Virus record (IMG/VR): IMGVR_UViG_3300039151_000187
Coordinates: 1 to 33,000 of that record
Reading direction: 5' to 3' (one strand)
Source: a virus
DNA: 33,000 bases
Shown here: positions 16,458 to 23,921 of the stretch, piece by piece
How positions within the stretch are numbered: the first letter of the stretch is position 1
Layout: every line of letters begins with the position of its first letter
The notes under the pieces: generated by a model
What the model was told of the DNA's origin: nothing
Database searches by the model: none
What the model saw: only the letters and a program-made list of their open reading frames with translations
Made by a program: the position numbers and the translations under genes

Positions 16458-17834
16458 TTATATAGTTTCTTTTAGTCTGTCACCAGAGTGAATTTCCTCC
16501 TCTGCCTTGGCTGCCATATGGTAAAAACCTACACAAACTTTCTTATTTGGAAAATTAGCTTTAAGGGCATAGTTTAAGGGCTTGGTTATAATCTTTTCAG
16601 GTATGGAAATACCAGTAGCTAAGTAATTTTTAAGAGCGTATAGTTGCTCTGATCCAGAGTTACTCCTTGCAGATTCATTAATGTTACCAAGAGCACCATT
16701 TAATCCTATACCAGCAGATACGGCCCTGTCTGCTCTATCTGATATTTTAATTTGACTATCAATAAATTCTTTAATATTTTGCTCTATGACCTTTATTTTC
16801 CATCCTGTCTCTGTAAGATTAATGCCATCGACTTCCATTACAGATTCCGTATGAAGAAACTTACCAACATTTTTATCTCCAGCTAAAACTTTACCGATTT
16901 TCCTAAAAAACTCTTGCTTCCATTTTGTAAAGTATTCCTCCTTAAAAGTCCTTTTTTCTTCCACATATTGTTCCTTCATTTGCTCTTTCTTATTCGCCCA
17001 AAATGCACCAGGACTTTCTATATGATATTTAATGTTAAGAGAATTATCTGAAAATGCTTTCAGTAAAAAGGGTATAGCAGTAGCACGACGTATCCATTCT
17101 AATGATCCATAGATGTCCGGTACTGTGTAGTAGTCTTGGCAAAAAGAATACATAGATGAATAGTAGGCAGATATTCTATGAGCAAATGGATTTTTAAAAT
17201 CAAACAACCTGTAAGCTTGATAGTTCTTAACTGAGTTAATATGATGGAAACCCCAATCTGTTACTACGCAATGGGTGGCGTCTAACTCATTAATGTTGGT
17301 ATCTACAACGGCAAGGCGAGATCTATCTGCCTTGCAATGCTCAAGCTTAAGAAATTTAGGCCTTCCTATTCTTCCTCCTCTACCTTGGATGAACTTAGTA
17401 AAGCCGCTCTCTATGTGGTTATAATCTACGATCTGCTTCATGAGATAAGACTCGTAATCCCATGACTCAAGCCACTGCTTTACTTCTTCATCTTCTGTCC
17501 ATTCTCTTACATATACGCCCTTTACTACTTTGTCTACATAAAGTTGTGGCCCCTGCCCATAGACAAGATCTCTCTTCTTGGCAAGTAGTCCAGGGGCTGT
17601 TGGGTTGTTAGCAATAATGTTCTTAATCTGGGTAGGTAGATCATTATAGTCACCATACGGAAAGATCCTGTAGCCACCTATGTGTGCCCTCCTATCCCAA
17701 TTCAACGACTCAGACTTAGGTCGCTGATCCTTAAACTCCCTCGGATTAGTTTCTGAAATGGCATAGCTAAAAGCTACGTCATCACACTCTACCGTACCTG
17801 CATAACCACCTTCACTTGTGTTTATATTAAACAT
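16458..17834 (-). CDS. Portal protein
   Basis: 458 residues, the size of siphovirus portals. The N-terminal wing has GDYNDLPTQIKNIIANNPTAPGLLAKKRDLVYGQG, a pattern typical of Bacteroidetes phage portals; a helical clip/stem region follows, then a long charged helix (about 300-345), and a C-terminal crown part with the ALGNINESARSNSGSEQ loop often seen in this group. It forms the ring at the head vertex through which DNA is packed by the terminase. It overlaps the small gene before it by 13 bases and is the second gene of the P2 unit, separated from terminase by the accessory region. Confidence 0.8.
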   Translation of the reverse strand: MFNINTSEGGYAGTVECDDVAFSYAISETNPREFKDQRPKSESLNWDRRAHIGGYRIFPYGDYNDLPTQIKNIIANNPTAPGLLAKKRDLVYGQGPQLYVDKVVKGVYVREWTEDEEVKQWLESWDYESYLMKQIVDYNHIESGFTKFIQGRGGRIGRPKFLKLEHCKADRSRLAVVDTNINELDATHCVVTDWGFHHINSVKNYQAYRLFDFKNPFAHRISAYYSSMYSFCQDYYTVPDIYGSLEWIRRATAIPFLLKAFSDNSLNIKYHIESPGAFWANKKEQMKEQYVEEKRTFKEEYFTKWKQEFFRKIGKVLAGDKNVGKFLHTESVMEVDGINLTETGWKIKVIEQNIKEFIDSQIKISDRADRAVSAGIGLNGALGNINESARSNSGSEQLYALKNYLATGISIPEKIITKPLNYALKANFPNKKVCVGFYHMAAKAEEEIHSGDRLKETI

Positions 17835-18097
17835 ATTTTGTTGAATTTTAAAAGTAATGGCAAGTAGAACTGTCGTTCTTCACCTGTGTTTACATCTTTA
17901 TATGCAATGAGCATATCGCTCTTAGTAGACTGGTTCTTCTTGTAGCCTTTTCGTAGTAAAGCTTTATCAACAACCTTAGTTCCTTTGGATATGCCTGTGG
18001 TCTGGTTGTAGGTTTGATAAGTAATTGAGAAGGGTATGCCTGCGTGAGACATCTCTCTCATTTGCTTCACTGCTACTTTAGCCCTATTGATACTCAT
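17822..18097 (-). CDS. Small protein upstream of portal, 91 aa
   Basis: Not recognised as a named family. Beta-rich small protein (FSITYQTYNQTTGISKGTKVVDKALLRKGYKK and RQFYLPLLLKFN) encoded as first gene of the P2 unit. The portal gene starts inside it. Such small proteins are often conserved beside portals in flavobacterial phages; a role in early head or connector assembly is guesswork. Confidence 0.55.
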   Translation of the reverse strand: MSINRAKVAVKQMREMSHAGIPFSITYQTYNQTTGISKGTKVVDKALLRKGYKKNQSTKSDMLIAYKDVNTGEERQFYLPLLLKFNKICLI

Positions 18098-18113
18098 TAG
18101 TTAGAAGTTTCTA

Positions 18114-18150
18114 CAAGTATAGAGTAGAGTGCTGGTTAAGGGTGTGACAA
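18114..18150 (-). promoter_or_regulatory. Phage promoter P2 (portal/neck unit)
   Basis: Minus strand: TTGTCACACC (18150-18141), 19 bases, TATACTTG (18121-18114), then 17 bases to the ATG at 18097. Identical spacing to the other four sites. The -7 box here keeps the TA start of the host consensus. The flank CACTTGTCACACC is the same as in P1. Confidence 0.75.
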
Positions 18151-18488
18151 GTGAGCTAATAACCCTGTTTATATAGGTTGGTTGGGCGCGGTGGCGGAGT
18201 GGTGCGCCATATTTCTAAGCCCAGTGGGGGCGGCGCACTCGCTTTTTAGGGATTGAGCGGGGTGGGATCTCGAGAACTTAACCCTAAAACATTGGAAATG
18301 TTTTAGGGTTAAGTTGCTGATAATCAGCGTGTTAACAAATTTAGGTTTTAGTCAATTAGGGTAAACACAGAGTTTTTTTAATGAAACACACAAAGGTTAA
18401 CAATGTCTTAAATTCTCTATTATATTAGAATATAGAGAGGTGAAAATTAGGCTAATACACTGATAATCAGTATATTTATATAACAAAA
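18151..18488. other. Divergent intergenic region with palindromes and a GC-rich patch
   Basis: No gene is visible between the P2 unit (-) and the radC operon (+). The region holds a GC-rich patch unlike the rest of the window (about 18180-18265) with inverted arms GTGCGCC (18202-18208) and GGCGCAC (18232-18238), the 19-bp palindrome at 18275-18315, and two copies of the palindrome CTGATAATCAG (18317-18327 and 18460-18470) 143 bases apart. It must contain the promoter of the radC operon, but no clear TAnnTTTG box on the plus strand is seen. A control region, an origin or a packaging-related site are all possible. Confidence 0.5.
18275..18315. repeat. Perfect 19-bp inverted repeat with GGA loop
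   Basis: AACTTAACCCTAAAACATT, then GGA, then its exact reverse complement. No T run follows on either strand, so it is not a standard terminator. The first 11 bases (AACTTAACCCT) recur at 384-394 just before the integrase, which suggests a shared regulator half site. Confidence 0.7.
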
Positions 18489-18514
18489 AAACACACTGCG
18501 ACAACAGTGTGTTT
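18482..18514 (-). terminator. Intrinsic terminator-like hairpin, minus strand
   Basis: AAACACACTG and CAGTGTGTTT form a 10-bp stem (18489-18498 with 18505-18514) around CGACAA. On the minus strand the stem is followed by a run of seven T. It would stop leftward transcription before it enters the P2 control region. In the other direction it lies 25 bases before the first gene of the radC operon. Confidence 0.55.
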
Positions 18515-18538
18515 AGGTAACCTTTAAAAAATTGAACT

Positions 18539-18766
18539 ATGCAAAAGTCAAATCTTTCACGCAAAGATACCCAAAACACTCTGAAAGACAGGGTACAAAA
18601 AATACTAAAATTAAGCGGTTTTGAACATTGTTTTTCTGAAGCCGATTTTATTTGTTTTTCTAGGCAAACAAAAGGCAACTTTTCTCAAGCCTTTGACATC
18701 TCCCAGATGTTTATAGAGGAAAATCAAAACACAATTAACGACTATACCTCTATTTATGAAAACTAA
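18539..18766 (+). CDS. Hypothetical protein, 75 aa, first gene of radC operon
   Basis: Not recognised. Helical protein with many Gln, Asn and Ser (MQKSNLSRKDTQNTLKDRVQ ... EENQNTINDYTSIYEN) and two cysteines. The radC-like gene starts inside its last codons (11-base overlap), so they form a translationally coupled pair. Small partner genes of this kind precede radC in several Bacteroidetes mobile elements; its role is unknown. Confidence 0.6.
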   Translation: MQKSNLSRKDTQNTLKDRVQKILKLSGFEHCFSEADFICFSRQTKGNFSQAFDISQMFIEENQNTINDYTSIYEN

Positions 18767-19229
18767 AGAAAACGAAAAAAACCTAAAAAGTGAGCTAAGC
18801 GAAATACAGGAAATTTCAATAAGCTACAAGCCTAGAAATATCTTAGGAAACAAGATTGGATCTTCTTTTGATGTTGAAAAAATACTGCGCCTATTCTTTG
18901 AGGATGAAATGGATTATAGAGAGAATTTTTTTGTTGCTATTCTCAATAATCAAAATGAAATTTTGGGAGTAAAAAGAATTTCAACCGGTGGCATGACCAG
19001 CACAGTAGTAGATATTCGATTAATTTTTCAAACTGCAATTTTAGGACATGCCACCAGCATAATTGTAGCTCACAATCACCCTAGCGGAGCTCTCAATCCG
19101 AGTGAACCCGACAAAACTATAACCAATAAAATTAAAACTGCTGGAAGCTACTTGGACATAAAACTTTTGGACCATTTAATTTTTAGCCGTGAAGGTTATT
19201 TCAGTTTTGCAGATGAAGGAATGTTATAA
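18756..19229 (+). CDS. radC: RadC-like JAB/MPN-domain protein
   Basis: 157 residues, the short form of RadC (DUF2466) carried by Bacteroidetes mobile elements, without the N-terminal helix-hairpin-helix domain of chromosomal RadC. The JAMM metal site is complete: Glu56 in RENFFVAILN, His106 and His108 in HNHPSG, Ser116 and Asp119 in SEPD. Despite the name, a role in DNA repair is not established for the family; a metal-dependent peptidase or nuclease-like activity is possible. It is convergent to the accessory genes on its right and is followed by a strong terminator. With its partner it interrupts the otherwise leftward virion genes. Confidence 0.88.
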   Translation: MKTKENEKNLKSELSEIQEISISYKPRNILGNKIGSSFDVEKILRLFFEDEMDYRENFFVAILNNQNEILGVKRISTGGMTSTVVDIRLIFQTAILGHATSIIVAHNHPSGALNPSEPDKTITNKIKTAGSYLDIKLLDHLIFSREGYFSFADEGML

Positions 19230-19238
19230 AATAAATCG

Positions 19239-19264
19239 GGGGCCAGAATGAGGCCCCTTTTTTA
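19239..19264 (+). terminator. Intrinsic terminator of the radC operon
   Basis: GGGGCC and GGCCCC (19239-19244 with 19252-19257) pair around seven bases and are followed by TTTTTT at the 3' side on the plus strand. It begins 10 bases after the radC stop. Confidence 0.85.
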
Positions 19265-19267
19265 TTC

Positions 19268-19292
19268 AAAAAAAATCGGGCTTACGCCCGAT
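19268..19292 (-). terminator. Intrinsic terminator of the leftward accessory genes
   Basis: ATCGGGC and GCCCGAT (19275-19281 with 19286-19292) pair around TTAC; on the minus strand the stem is followed by a run of T from 19275 to 19268. It stops leftward transcription arriving from terminase and the accessory genes, back to back with the radC terminator. Confidence 0.8.
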
Positions 19293-19370
19293 GTTCATTG
19301 CTTATCTTCAAGTTCATTAAGGCATGAACTTTCTAAACGCGCAATGGTAAAAAATCTATTTGATAACGAT

Positions 19371-20753: not shown

Positions 20754-22442
20754 CTAATAAACCTCTGGATCACTAGTGTGGTAAATGCTACGACCATTAC
20801 TAATCTTCACCCAGTTTTTTCTATAAAGCAAGTATTTAAACGCGTCAGAATAGTTGGTCGAATACATGGGCAGCTGCTTAATAGGTAACTTTTCGCTAGA
20901 CTTGTCCTTTTTGATCACCGTTTGCCCTTTGGCGTTTTTGGTGACTTTTGTTTTGGCAAGCTCGAGAGAAGATTTCAGGTTTGGACATTGCAAAGCATCT
21001 ATAATAAGCTCCGGTAATTTTGGATAATAATTACCCATGAGCTTTTTGGCAAATAAGTATTCTTCTTCCTGGAGTATGTTCGCCTGATTTTTAGAATTGA
21101 GAACCACTGTCCATCCTGTTTTGGCACCTTCGTAATTCTCGATATGGTCCTTGATCTCATTCGCAAAATCTCGCTTAATCATCTGGTATTGATTTCCTGC
21201 CCGGTCATACCATAAATACAAAACTTTGTTTTTTTGGTACTTAAAGAAATCTATAAACTTCTTGGCCAACTCCTTGCTAGATTCCGGGGCAAGGGTGTGA
21301 AACTCCTTAATTATTCTATAAAGCCGATCGTTTCCCTGGCCCATTACCAAACTGGTCTGGTTTCCAAAATCCATACCTCCTTCTATAGGTGCTTTATGAT
21401 TTAGGTATCTAAGCGCTAAAGAGGAAGCTTCAAAAGTTTCGGTAAGTTTTTTACTCTCGTAAAATTGATTATTTACACCATCGTAATAAAAGTGATCTTC
21501 ATTCAAATTGATATAAAAACGCTCTCCTTTTTCAATATTGGGCTTGAAGGATAATATACTGGCCTTGGCTTCTTCTTGTCCTAGATCCTTAAGGGAATTG
21601 ATAAAATAGTCCGCACCCAAAATGGTTGCATTGGCCAAAGAGGAACTTATATGAAAAAAGGTAAGACTCTTTCTTACTCTGTTGTGACGCTCCATCCATC
21701 GTACGAGATTTTTATCGAGTTTCTTTACCCTATCATAATGGCCTTTGTCATGAGCCTCTTTCATTTCTATACGAATCTCATTTATGACGATACCCACTTG
21801 TAAGGCATGTAAGAATTTATCCTGGTCCATTTCTTTAGCCCCTTTCAATATCCAATCTTGATCGCCCATGGTGACATTGGGCATATCTGTAGTAAATGTG
21901 GTGCCAAGGTAAAAAGGAGATGTGGAGGCTTCTGGAAACCCTCGCAATGCAGGCATTAATTTGTTGAGCTTTTTGGATTTTAGATATTTTGCTTCATCAC
22001 CAAATACATGCTGATAAGAATCTCCCGCAACAGAAGAAACCTGATCTAAGGAGCCAAGCTTTATCAAATTTCCTAAGTAGGTGGATATAGTATGCTTAAA
22101 TTTGAGAACAGGCTTGTAGTTTTTTTGAAAGTGATCTGGAGGTGCAACATCTGTAACATAGTGAACGCCTTCTATCCATCCTTTACGATTGAAGCCTTCC
22201 AGAATAGAAGGCACAACATTTTCTAAAGCATTTGTATAAGTATCACTCACTATGGCAAAGCGAGCTCTGGGCATTTCGTAGCAAACATCCATAATTCTAT
22301 CGGCTAGAATATCTGTAGTTTTGGAAGTACCACGGCCAGCTACAATCTTTACGTGTTGTGGCTTGGATAGATCTATAACTTGTTTTATTACGGTAGCGTA
22401 ACGCTTTTCTGTATTACTTTTCTTGTAACCTTGGGTTTTCAT
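20754..22442 (-). CDS. terL: Terminase large subunit
   Basis: 562 residues, the packaging motor and nuclease. The ATPase domain has Walker A AGRGTSKT (35-42) and Walker B HVFGDE (145-150). The RNase H-like nuclease domain has Asp358 in EGGMDFGNQTS, Asp413 in LWYDRAG, and a late Asp533 in SDAFKYLL, the three expected metal ligands. It cuts concatemeric DNA and drives it through the portal. It overlaps the preceding gene by 29 bases. Unusually, the portal is not next to it but about 2.9 kb away, beyond the accessory region. Confidence 0.93.
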   Translation of the reverse strand: MKTQGYKKSNTEKRYATVIKQVIDLSKPQHVKIVAGRGTSKTTDILADRIMDVCYEMPRARFAIVSDTYTNALENVVPSILEGFNRKGWIEGVHYVTDVAPPDHFQKNYKPVLKFKHTISTYLGNLIKLGSLDQVSSVAGDSYQHVFGDEAKYLKSKKLNKLMPALRGFPEASTSPFYLGTTFTTDMPNVTMGDQDWILKGAKEMDQDKFLHALQVGIVINEIRIEMKEAHDKGHYDRVKKLDKNLVRWMERHNRVRKSLTFFHISSSLANATILGADYFINSLKDLGQEEAKASILSFKPNIEKGERFYINLNEDHFYYDGVNNQFYESKKLTETFEASSLALRYLNHKAPIEGGMDFGNQTSLVMGQGNDRLYRIIKEFHTLAPESSKELAKKFIDFFKYQKNKVLYLWYDRAGNQYQMIKRDFANEIKDHIENYEGAKTGWTVVLNSKNQANILQEEEYLFAKKLMGNYYPKLPELIIDALQCPNLKSSLELAKTKVTKNAKGQTVIKKDKSSEKLPIKQLPMYSTNYSDAFKYLLYRKNWVKISNGRSIYHTSDPEVY

Positions 22443-23043
22443 GGTCTGGTTTAAATAATTTAAAAGGCAATAAATCTGCTTCCTCTCTTAAAGAATTTCG
22501 TTCTTTTTCGCTCAATTCTGGATATTCATCTATAAATCTTGCCAGCTTGTACCTATCTGGTTTTGGTAGGCCCAAGAATTCTGCATCTACAGAATACATT
22601 TTGAAGGGTTTGGCCAAAAGTTCTTCGGGAAACTCCATGGCATCTTCTTTATTGATTTCTAGTATTTCTGCGATGTCTTTTATTTTACCTAAAGCCATAA
22701 CAACATCCTTGGAGCTTTCTGCAAGCTTCAGGGCAAGTGTTATTCCATTTTCTAGCTTTTCTGCTAATCTATTCTTGTGAGCTTGTTTGCTGACTTGCCG
22801 CTCTGCATAGAAATACTCCGTCATCATATCGTACCACTTGTTGGCGAGATAGTAAGAATAACCATCTACTTTTTCCAAATGCTTTATAATGTGATCTCTA
22901 CTTTGCCACCTCAAATACATGCCATGTATTTTCTCTAGCTTAGATAGTGTTTCCACGACCTCACTAGGAGCGTCCTTACGGCTTCCATTGTGAATAAAGT
23001 CCTGTATGTCTTCTAGAGTGATATCTTCAATCTTCATGGCCAA
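22414..23043 (-). CDS. Terminase-linked hypothetical protein, 209 aa
   Basis: Not recognised. Long helical protein (EDITLEDIQDFIHNGSRKDAP, then KLEKIHGMYLRWQSRDHIIKHLE) lying between small and large terminase and overlapping both (17 and 29 bases). The overlaps suggest it is made in fixed ratio with them and takes part in packaging, possibly as a second recognition subunit. No enzyme motif is seen. Confidence 0.6.
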   Translation of the reverse strand: MAMKIEDITLEDIQDFIHNGSRKDAPSEVVETLSKLEKIHGMYLRWQSRDHIIKHLEKVDGYSYYLANKWYDMMTEYFYAERQVSKQAHKNRLAEKLENGITLALKLAESSKDVVMALGKIKDIAEILEINKEDAMEFPEELLAKPFKMYSVDAEFLGLPKPDRYKLARFIDEYPELSEKERNSLREEADLLPFKLFKPDHENPRLQEK

Positions 23044-23377
23044 ATAGTATGTCGTTCTTTAAATTTTCTACCCTTTGCACTCTTGCTATTTTCTTAAATT
23101 CTTGTGCTGCAGTAATATTTCCACTTTTGGCATGGGTAAGAAGTCCTTCAGCAATAAGAAATTCTGCCTCGAGCAACCCTTTGTCATAATGATGCCTTAC
23201 TAGGGAGGTATTTATTTTCCACTCTTTTATAAAATGGGTCTCGTTGACACCCAAATACTTTGCTATGCTTCTTGGGGCATAGTTTGCAGCTGCTAGTGTT
23301 TCAATTTCGCTGTATTGCTCCTCCGATAGCCTTAGCTCTGATTTTAACATCGGTAAAAATCTTTCTTCTGAATTCAT
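23027..23377 (-). CDS. Terminase small subunit-like protein
   Basis: An HTH at about residues 20-42 (AANYAPRSIAKYLGVNETHF) followed by helices (AEFLIAEGLLTHAKSGNITAAQEFKKIA) is the pattern of phage small terminase subunits, which bind the packaging site. The longest frame begins at 23515 but would run 215 bases into the PLD-like gene; ATG 23377 (116 aa, MNSEERF) or 23350 are better, and still overlap it by 77 or 50 bases. It lies two genes before the large terminase. Moderately sure. Confidence 0.6.
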   Translation of the reverse strand: MNSEERFLPMLKSELRLSEEQYSEIETLAAANYAPRSIAKYLGVNETHFIKEWKINTSLVRHHYDKGLLEAEFLIAEGLLTHAKSGNITAAQEFKKIARVQRVENLKNDILFGHED

Positions 23378-23921
23378 AAGTTTCTTTTGAATTATAAAAT
23401 AGGTACTGCTCGTAGTGGGCATTTTCACTATGATTTCCAGATCCTTCAATACCAAAATAAGCATCTTGCGTCTTAATAAGTGTGACTTTGGCATGTGACC
23501 AGGAATAGTTGACAATAAAATTTGCTCTACTACTTACCTGGGCTGCTAGGAGCTCCATAGTGGTAGGATTTCTTTTAATAAGAGAATCTGAAATCATTAA
23601 AGTGATTTGGTCGCAGTAGCCCTTATCGTACAGTTCTATCAAGGCGTCTATAACCCTTCTACTTATAGAATATGTACAAATGTAAAGATGCTGTATATTA
23701 TGATTTTGAGCTATAAAGGGGATAAAAGTAAACGCATTAAAAGAGTTGTCTGTTTGCAAAAAAAAGAACTCTTCCACAGTAGGAAGCCTTTTGAGATCTT
23801 TGTCCAGATGGGCTATTTTTTCAAAATGCTTATTGATGTATTTGGACTTAAAGACAGAAGACATCTCATCTTTCGCCTCTTCTTTTGGCAGTTGCTGCAA
23901 ATCAAAGAATCTGTTTTTCAT
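23301..23921 (-). CDS. Phospholipase D-like (HKD-type) protein
   Basis: 206 residues. The C-terminal half has an HKD-like motif: His143 and Lys145 in WSHAKVTLIK, Asp153, then a FGIEGSGNHSENAHYEQY block (156-173) typical of PLD-family nucleases, where Gly-Ser and Asn follow the motif. Only one motif is present, so an active enzyme would need to dimerise, as known for the Nuc-type nucleases. The gene sits within the packaging group and overlaps both neighbours, so it could process DNA ends in packaging. Function is inference. Confidence 0.7.
   Translation of the reverse strand: MKNRFFDLQQLPKEEAKDEMSSVFKSKYINKHFEKIAHLDKDLKRLPTVEEFFFLQTDNSFNAFTFIPFIAQNHNIQHLYICTYSISRRVIDALIELYDKGYCDQITLMISDSLIKRNPTTMELLAAQVSSRANFIVNYSWSHAKVTLIKTQDAYFGIEGSGNHSENAHYEQYLFYNSKETYEFRRKIFTDVKIRAKAIGGAIQRN

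Follow-up and report, generated by a model that had tools for sequence, protein, structure and literature searches.

The cos site of phage lambda yields a 12-nt 5′ overhang, GGGCGGCGACCT (PMC9611059), and an HK97-type site is named as 3′ cos in the PhageTerm paper, which also describes how ends fare in sequencing: 5′ overhangs are filled in and 3′ overhangs trimmed away when libraries are made, and assemblers put cos ends at contig limits (PMC5557969). Because 3′ overhangs are removed, loss of a core without shared ends is the expected trace of a 3′ cos. The paper on Cellulophaga phage Ingeline gives Polaribacter phage Leef as Cos 3′ by PhageTerm and lists the ends of Ingeline as not determined (PMC8776804). 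The genome of Flavobacterium phage laban is called circular on the basis of shared k-mers (PMC7077304).

Here we describe a locus in the virus record IMGVR_UViG_3300039151_000187, of which 33,000 bases (the window, a partial genome) were analyzed. Sequence comparisons make it very likely that a gene-free gap in the window, at 18098–18538, holds the cos packaging site of this phage. The signal found there is common to dozens of related viruses of Bacteroidota bacteria.

Gene organization around the gap

The first-pass annotation had reported 441 bases without a gene, and we find exactly such a gap between a leftward gene for a 91-aa protein and a rightward gene for a 75-aa protein. The genes relevant here are:

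16458–17834, minus strand: portal protein gene (48% identity to laban6-1, 40% to 6H and 37% to the portal annotated in Ingeline)
17822–18097, minus strand: 91-aa gene adjoining the proposed cos site (phrog_26140, function unannotated)
18539–18766, rightward: 75-aa gene
20754–22442, minus strand: TerL, large terminase gene (phrog_2)
23027–23377, minus strand: TerS candidate, second gene upstream of TerL (helix-turn-helix plus helical hairpin; weak HTH_38 match)

The Flavobacterium phages laban6-1 and 6H, relatives of the window by portal, belong to the Duneviridae. G+C content is 0.55 at 18150–18249, compared to 0.32–0.40 across 1.5-kb stretches of the window. Four other IMG/VR contigs contain the gap or part of it, three of them at 93–95% over ∼1150 nt and the fourth (L014) at 64% over 851 nt.

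Homologues of the TerS candidate were found in 71 of the 82 TerL loci searched. Its structural model (pLDDT 89.8) shows a helix-turn-helix and a helical hairpin, a layout described for TerS (PMC9611059). The best PDB structure matches, both weak, were a Bacillus cereus phage protein (2ao9) and Sf6 TerS; no Foldseek match had an E value below 0.24, the best Z score was 5.0 over 60 residues at 3.4 Å, and searching PDB sequences with the TerS alignment gave nothing below E 0.19. The protein encoded just upstream (23301–23921) shows a weak match to PLD-like nucleases (E 1.3e-4, below Pfam's cut-off).

Gene content between TerL and the gap differs among relatives. This interval contains a RadC-like gene in the window (18539–19229), a methyltransferase gene and a SymE-like gene in laban (L016, 3688–5555), and DUF932 and SymE-like genes in FPSV-F7 (L110, 3159–4891), and it looks like a cargo site adjoining cos. 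A 41-nt stretch of the gap (18393–18433) recurs in inverted orientation, with 83% identity, closer to TerL in two relatives (L010, 3362–3401); a shared operator or promoter for cargo genes is one possible explanation. The two ends of contig IMGVR_UViG_3300028300_000053 (L005, L013) overlap by 1.77 kb, and since they are only 89.6% identical, the overlap represents neither a clean terminal repeat nor a clean circular genome.

A two-part signal conserved next to the portal operon

The gaps of laban, 6H and Ingeline have in common the sequence CATATNTCT followed by a G+C-rich core. In the window, this signal spans 18208–18266 and consists of CATATNTCT, ∼38 nt with an inner GYA box, and then AGCG(G/T)GNCGG:

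18208–18216, plus strand: CATATTTCT box (CATATNTCT), proposed terminase recognition element, strict in 42 of 68 portal loci and degenerate in 5 more
18233–18242, plus strand: inner box GCGCACTCGC, the window version of the GYA(A).. or TGCAATTGCA-like box, with an invariant G and A
18256–18266, plus strand: core AGCGGGGTGGG, proposed cosN with a staggered cut and a predicted 11-nt 3′ overhang, which aligns with the 11 nt lost in linear Ingeline

The arrangement CATATNTCT-N(34-44)-AGCGKG occurs once in the window (18208–18261), where 0.01 occurrences are expected, and one of 100 dinucleotide shuffles contained it once.

Scanning IMG/VR by portal alignment yielded 72 loci, of which 68 were examined; L112, L113, L171 and L174, which are second ends or truncated, were excluded. 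The signal adjoins the portal operon in 47 of these 68 portal-selected loci, as it does in phages 6H, laban and Ingeline, and the box is followed by the core in each of the 47, except where the contig stops there (L121, L169). Neither a box nor a fitting core was seen in the remaining 21, and the 11 of these that were inspected further have no ORF-free gap of at least 120 nt within 1.6 kb upstream of the portal gene, excepting the first part of the portal gene itself in four cases. For GTDB genomes, the core was present in 13 of 40 portal loci, L311 was cut at the core, and no element was found in 26, two of which offer <40 nt to inspect.

We aligned 44 distinct copies (of 48), including those of the window, 6H, laban, Ingeline_8 and L189. 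Box-to-core spacing is 46–49 nt in these copies, where 35–75 nt was permitted by the selection, and, counting back from the core, position −21 is G and position −19 is A in all 44, neither position being part of the selection pattern. Thus, the spacing and these two nucleotides were not prescribed by the way copies were chosen. Six core columns are also invariant, although some of these were already fixed by the selection. One caveat here is that the 44 copies were picked by a looser core pattern, and hence the count of 39/44 versus 0/22,000 shuffles, as well as the invariance of some core columns, is partly circular.

The box–core pattern was found in 68 IMG/VR stretches and in 5 of 397 genomes (one family), compared to 0 for the reversed pattern. 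In the stored stretch, a portal gene accompanies the pattern at 60 of these 73 places, and TerL, with or without the 91-aa gene, at another 5. A total of 65/73 thus lie beside portal, TerL or 91-aa genes, indicative of a conserved, lineage-specific site near terminase genes. The other 8 places, with none of these genes in the stored stretch, were considered as cos-carrying satellites, and no satellite was found. Seven of them fall inside ORFs of at least 110 aa and look like chance; five of the seven (L354, L375, L386, L417 and L418) are near-identical in sequence and hence represent one gene family. The eighth is a cos-like element beside a 1549-aa ORF at L366 9685–9742, with no portal gene there, and the L158 contig of the same isolate has a portal gene without the element. 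In the one Porphyromonas phage inspected, TTAGCGGGACG is found in the TerL–portal gap.

No account of the element was found in the open-access literature searched, including passages of PMC8776804, PMC10367356, PMC7077304, PMC7761591, PMC9611059 and PMC5557969.

DNA ends at the core

Ingeline is represented by seven linear records (Ingeline_1 to _7) and a circular one (Ingeline_8). In all seven linear records, the true sequence continues up to the base before AGCG and resumes 11 (or 12) nt later, and the intervening nucleotides are carried by Ingeline_8. Read in window orientation, the linear records show ..GACCTG, then 7–8 G/C-only bases that differ among records, and then GTTAAATC. Ingeline_8 reads GACCTG-AGCGTGGCGGT-GTTAAATC, such that 11 nt are absent from the linear records, or 12 should the G preceding TTAAATC be noise. 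Both ends are fixed in 7/7 cases.

An independent full-length example is the 47,219-bp contig NZ_JAIXUB010000022.1, binned as a Flavobacterium MAG, in which the portal match lies 455 nt inside one end and TerL ∼3.2 kb inside the other. The portal-side end stops 49 nt past the box start, where the core should begin. The TerL-side end is without a core and seems to start just past it, a placement made only by likeness to other copies. No bases are common to the two ends, and no uncut copy was seen.

Several other contigs end close by. L009 stops 48 nt past the box start, at the same base as the 47-kb contig on its portal side. L251 begins a single base ahead of the core and L014 8 nt ahead of it, and FPSV-D35 breaks off 7 nt before reaching it. 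FPSV-D17 and 1H were dropped as end evidence, as their breaks are not at the core. With Ingeline excluded, 47 metagenome contig ends were counted in the TerL–portal interval (some from near-duplicate contigs), and 3 of them lie within 10 nt of the core; the number expected is 0.39 (P = 0.008), 0.66 (P = 0.03) or 0.99 (P = 0.08) for assumed spans of 2.5, 1.5 and 1 kb, respectively. Most of the weight of the end evidence is therefore carried by Ingeline and the 47-kb contig.

Relatives of the window phage therefore combine a conserved signal with fixed ends at its core and a loss of ∼11 nt at linear ends. By extension, the window phage is presumably cut in the same way, and the overhangs, of ∼11 nt, are probably at the 3′ ends. 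Counting against a cos site are the relatives without the element (21 of 68 portal loci, 26 of 40 genome loci), the breaks of FPSV-D17 and 1H away from the core, the published descriptions of the laban genome as circular and of the Ingeline ends as not determined, the absence of this core from Leef and the weak fold matches of the TerS candidate. A packaging or recombination site had been among the functions suggested for the gap from its palindromes. The packaging half of this suggestion is supported, in that related phages have their fixed DNA ends in the gap, but the signal consists of box and core, and the palindromes are mostly not key to it. A start site for headful (pac) packaging would also be expected near terminase genes and gives one fixed end, in line with the location of the element. 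However, the two ends of Ingeline lie on either side of one short core, as also seems to be the case for the 47-kb contig, and we therefore regard a pac site as highly unlikely.

Cos also accounts better for the element than does a phage attachment site or a lysis-lysogeny switch, the latter proposed in the first-pass annotation. These related readings draw on the palindromes, the divergent genes and the presence of an integrase gene (401–1585). However, the integrase gene is 17 kb away in the linear record, and the two genes flanking the gap give no repressor-like match. Moreover, box and core are uncut in bacterial contigs of 0.2–0.9 Mb (L312, L314, L316, L326), which argues against an attachment site. 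We consider either function extremely improbable.

Transcription signals in the gap

Two features of the gap point to transcriptional control:

18114–18149, minus strand: leftward promoter-like site (TGTCACAC ... TATACTTG) for the 91-aa/portal operon
18489–18514, minus strand: hairpin resembling a terminator of leftward transcription, with a T run after it on the minus strand

The consensus for the −7 element in Bacteroidetes is TAnnTTTG. In the window, TGTCACAC ... (T/C)TTG occurs with fixed spacing at five places on the minus strand (9674, 18143, 24951, 29041 and 30899), each 46–67 nt before a leftward start. The probability of five such sites by chance is ∼2.6e-8, calculated for a list of 40 starts and with the motif chosen after the fact. 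These sites probably represent the late promoter of the phage. TGTGACA is present to the left of the box in 25 of 41 relatives. One promoter-like site was identified in the gap; the earlier remark that the two flanking promoters do not explain the combination of elements was a fair one.

The hairpin at 18489–18514, also noted previously, would stop leftward transcription coming from the TerL side. It appears in L014 with other bases (as judged by eye), and it is the one terminator-like site in 17900–18700, where 0.5 is expected.

Inverted repeats and palindromes

The remaining symmetrical elements named in the first-pass annotation are all present. Apart from a GC-rich inverted repeat at 18202–18238 (GTGCGCC at 18202, GGCGCAC at 18232), these are:

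18275–18293 and 18297–18315, unstranded: perfect 19-bp inverted repeat with a 3-nt loop, on the TerL side of the core
18317–18327, unstranded: CTGATAATCAG copy 1, possible operator, not exactly kept in relatives
18460–18470, unstranded: CTGATAATCAG copy 2, possible operator, with an exact match in three close relatives and none in L014

None of 60 mononucleotide shuffles of the surrounding 110 nt gave a stem as good as the 19-bp repeat. The stem is kept in three close relatives, with variation in the loop (GGA in the window, AAA in L010 and L013, TCC in L011) and in the last base of the arms, nearest the loop. The change from GGA to TCC in L011 looks as if the loop (window 18293–18299) had been inverted. 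L014 has a different stem of 13 bp at this position (read by eye). To the left of the stem, the strip GATTGAGCGGG is kept in 5/5 sequences (the window and four close relatives). A scan for GATTGAGCGGGKTNGG returned 89 stretches; among those listed with A+T above 45%, the hairpin after GATTGAGCGGGKTNGG was seen only in close relatives.

Across the aligned copies, the hairpin beside the core beat all 60 shuffles in 15/44, versus 7/44 on the left side, and is thus frequent rather than universal. The best stem of Ingeline at this place is weak, 43 of 60 shuffles being as good. Arms of the hairpin often contain AACC/GGTT, with the outer pairs changing. In many relatives, the hairpin resembles a two-way terminator; in the window, it is without a T run. 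The 19-bp hairpin may act as a terminator or insulator, or as a packaging structure. We consider it doubtful that the packaging signal extends to the hairpin next to cosN, as a position-conserved, sequence-variable stem on the TerL side whose structure is read by terminase or motor; if it does, this design of cos would include a structural arm.

These hairpins bear on another reading of the gap, namely that it serves transcription control only (divergent promoters, operators and terminators) and that the fixed ends are assembly breaks at hairpins. The divergent genes, the promoter-like site and the terminator-like hairpin are all consistent with this, as is the hairpin beside the core in many copies. 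However, the ends lie at the core and not in the hairpin, the sharpest ends are those of Ingeline, with its weak stem, and box, spacing and core are better kept than the hairpin. These data argue for a cos site and render a purely transcriptional role improbable.

The two CTGATAATCAG copies are odd-centred 5+1+5 palindromes, 143 nt apart as reported earlier, and imperfectly kept in close relatives. By our estimate, a pair of 11-nt sequences in 441 nt is not far beyond chance. Three close relatives retain the exact second copy of CTGATAATCAG and the 19-bp stem. The GC-rich repeat and the CTGATAATCAG sites are outside the family-wide signal, which comprises box and core.

Inverted repeats in a gene-free gap might also suggest an origin of replication, another of the earlier proposals. 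It gained no support here: GC skew shows no turning point at 18.2 kb (a weak test, at 1.5-kb resolution on a partial genome), a search for direct repeats in 17900–18800 gave two-copy families only, and the fixed ends would be left unexplained. An origin is accordingly very improbable. A structured RNA was considered as well and rejected. The region 18120–18340 folds better than 200 shuffles on both strands (z = −5.5, −6.1); since the longest helix in each fold is the 19-bp stem, these z-scores are no separate evidence. Rfam gave 8 matches up to E 5 in 17600–19300, none of which reached the gathering score.

A model for packaging

In the model that we favor, cleavage at cos, the TerS candidate and TerL would recognize the CATATTTCT box and the inner box in concatemeric DNA, and the terminase would make a staggered cut across AGCGGGGTGGG, leaving ∼11-nt 3′ overhangs. 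The polarity of the overhangs and the assignment of each protein to a box are predictions of the model. One genome would be packaged between successive cos sites, and, by analogy with lambda, the portal-side end may enter first. The leftward promoter-like site would serve the portal operon, and the role of the hairpin on the TerL side is probably to terminate transcription at cos or to insulate the site from it.

From these results comes a cos consensus that can be tested in Duneviridae-like phages of Bacteroidota. Such a consensus lets genome ends be set in metagenomic contigs, makes cos-based vectors for Bacteroidota hosts possible, and allows satellites that borrow the site to be sought.

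Comparison with known packaging sites

Leef (Helgolandviridae) has a homologous TerL, and its record ends 83 nt after this gene. The end sequence of Leef is without the CATATNTCT/AGCGKGNCGG element, and five annotated genes lie between the record end and portal. Lambda cos resembles the site described here in having a G+C-rich core of similar length next to the terminase genes, on which TerS and TerL act in the case of lambda. However, lambda overhangs are 5′, whereas the ends here look 3′. More similar in this respect is the HK97-type 3′ cos, where the ends are likewise fixed and the bases between them are lost in linear assemblies without shared terminal bases. The likeness to HK97 is one of description rather than sequence: the site here lies between TerL (plus cargo genes) and portal, and its box, inner box and core are particular to the clade of the window. 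A cos site is a known kind of site, and the one proposed here is ordinary in kind and useful in detail.
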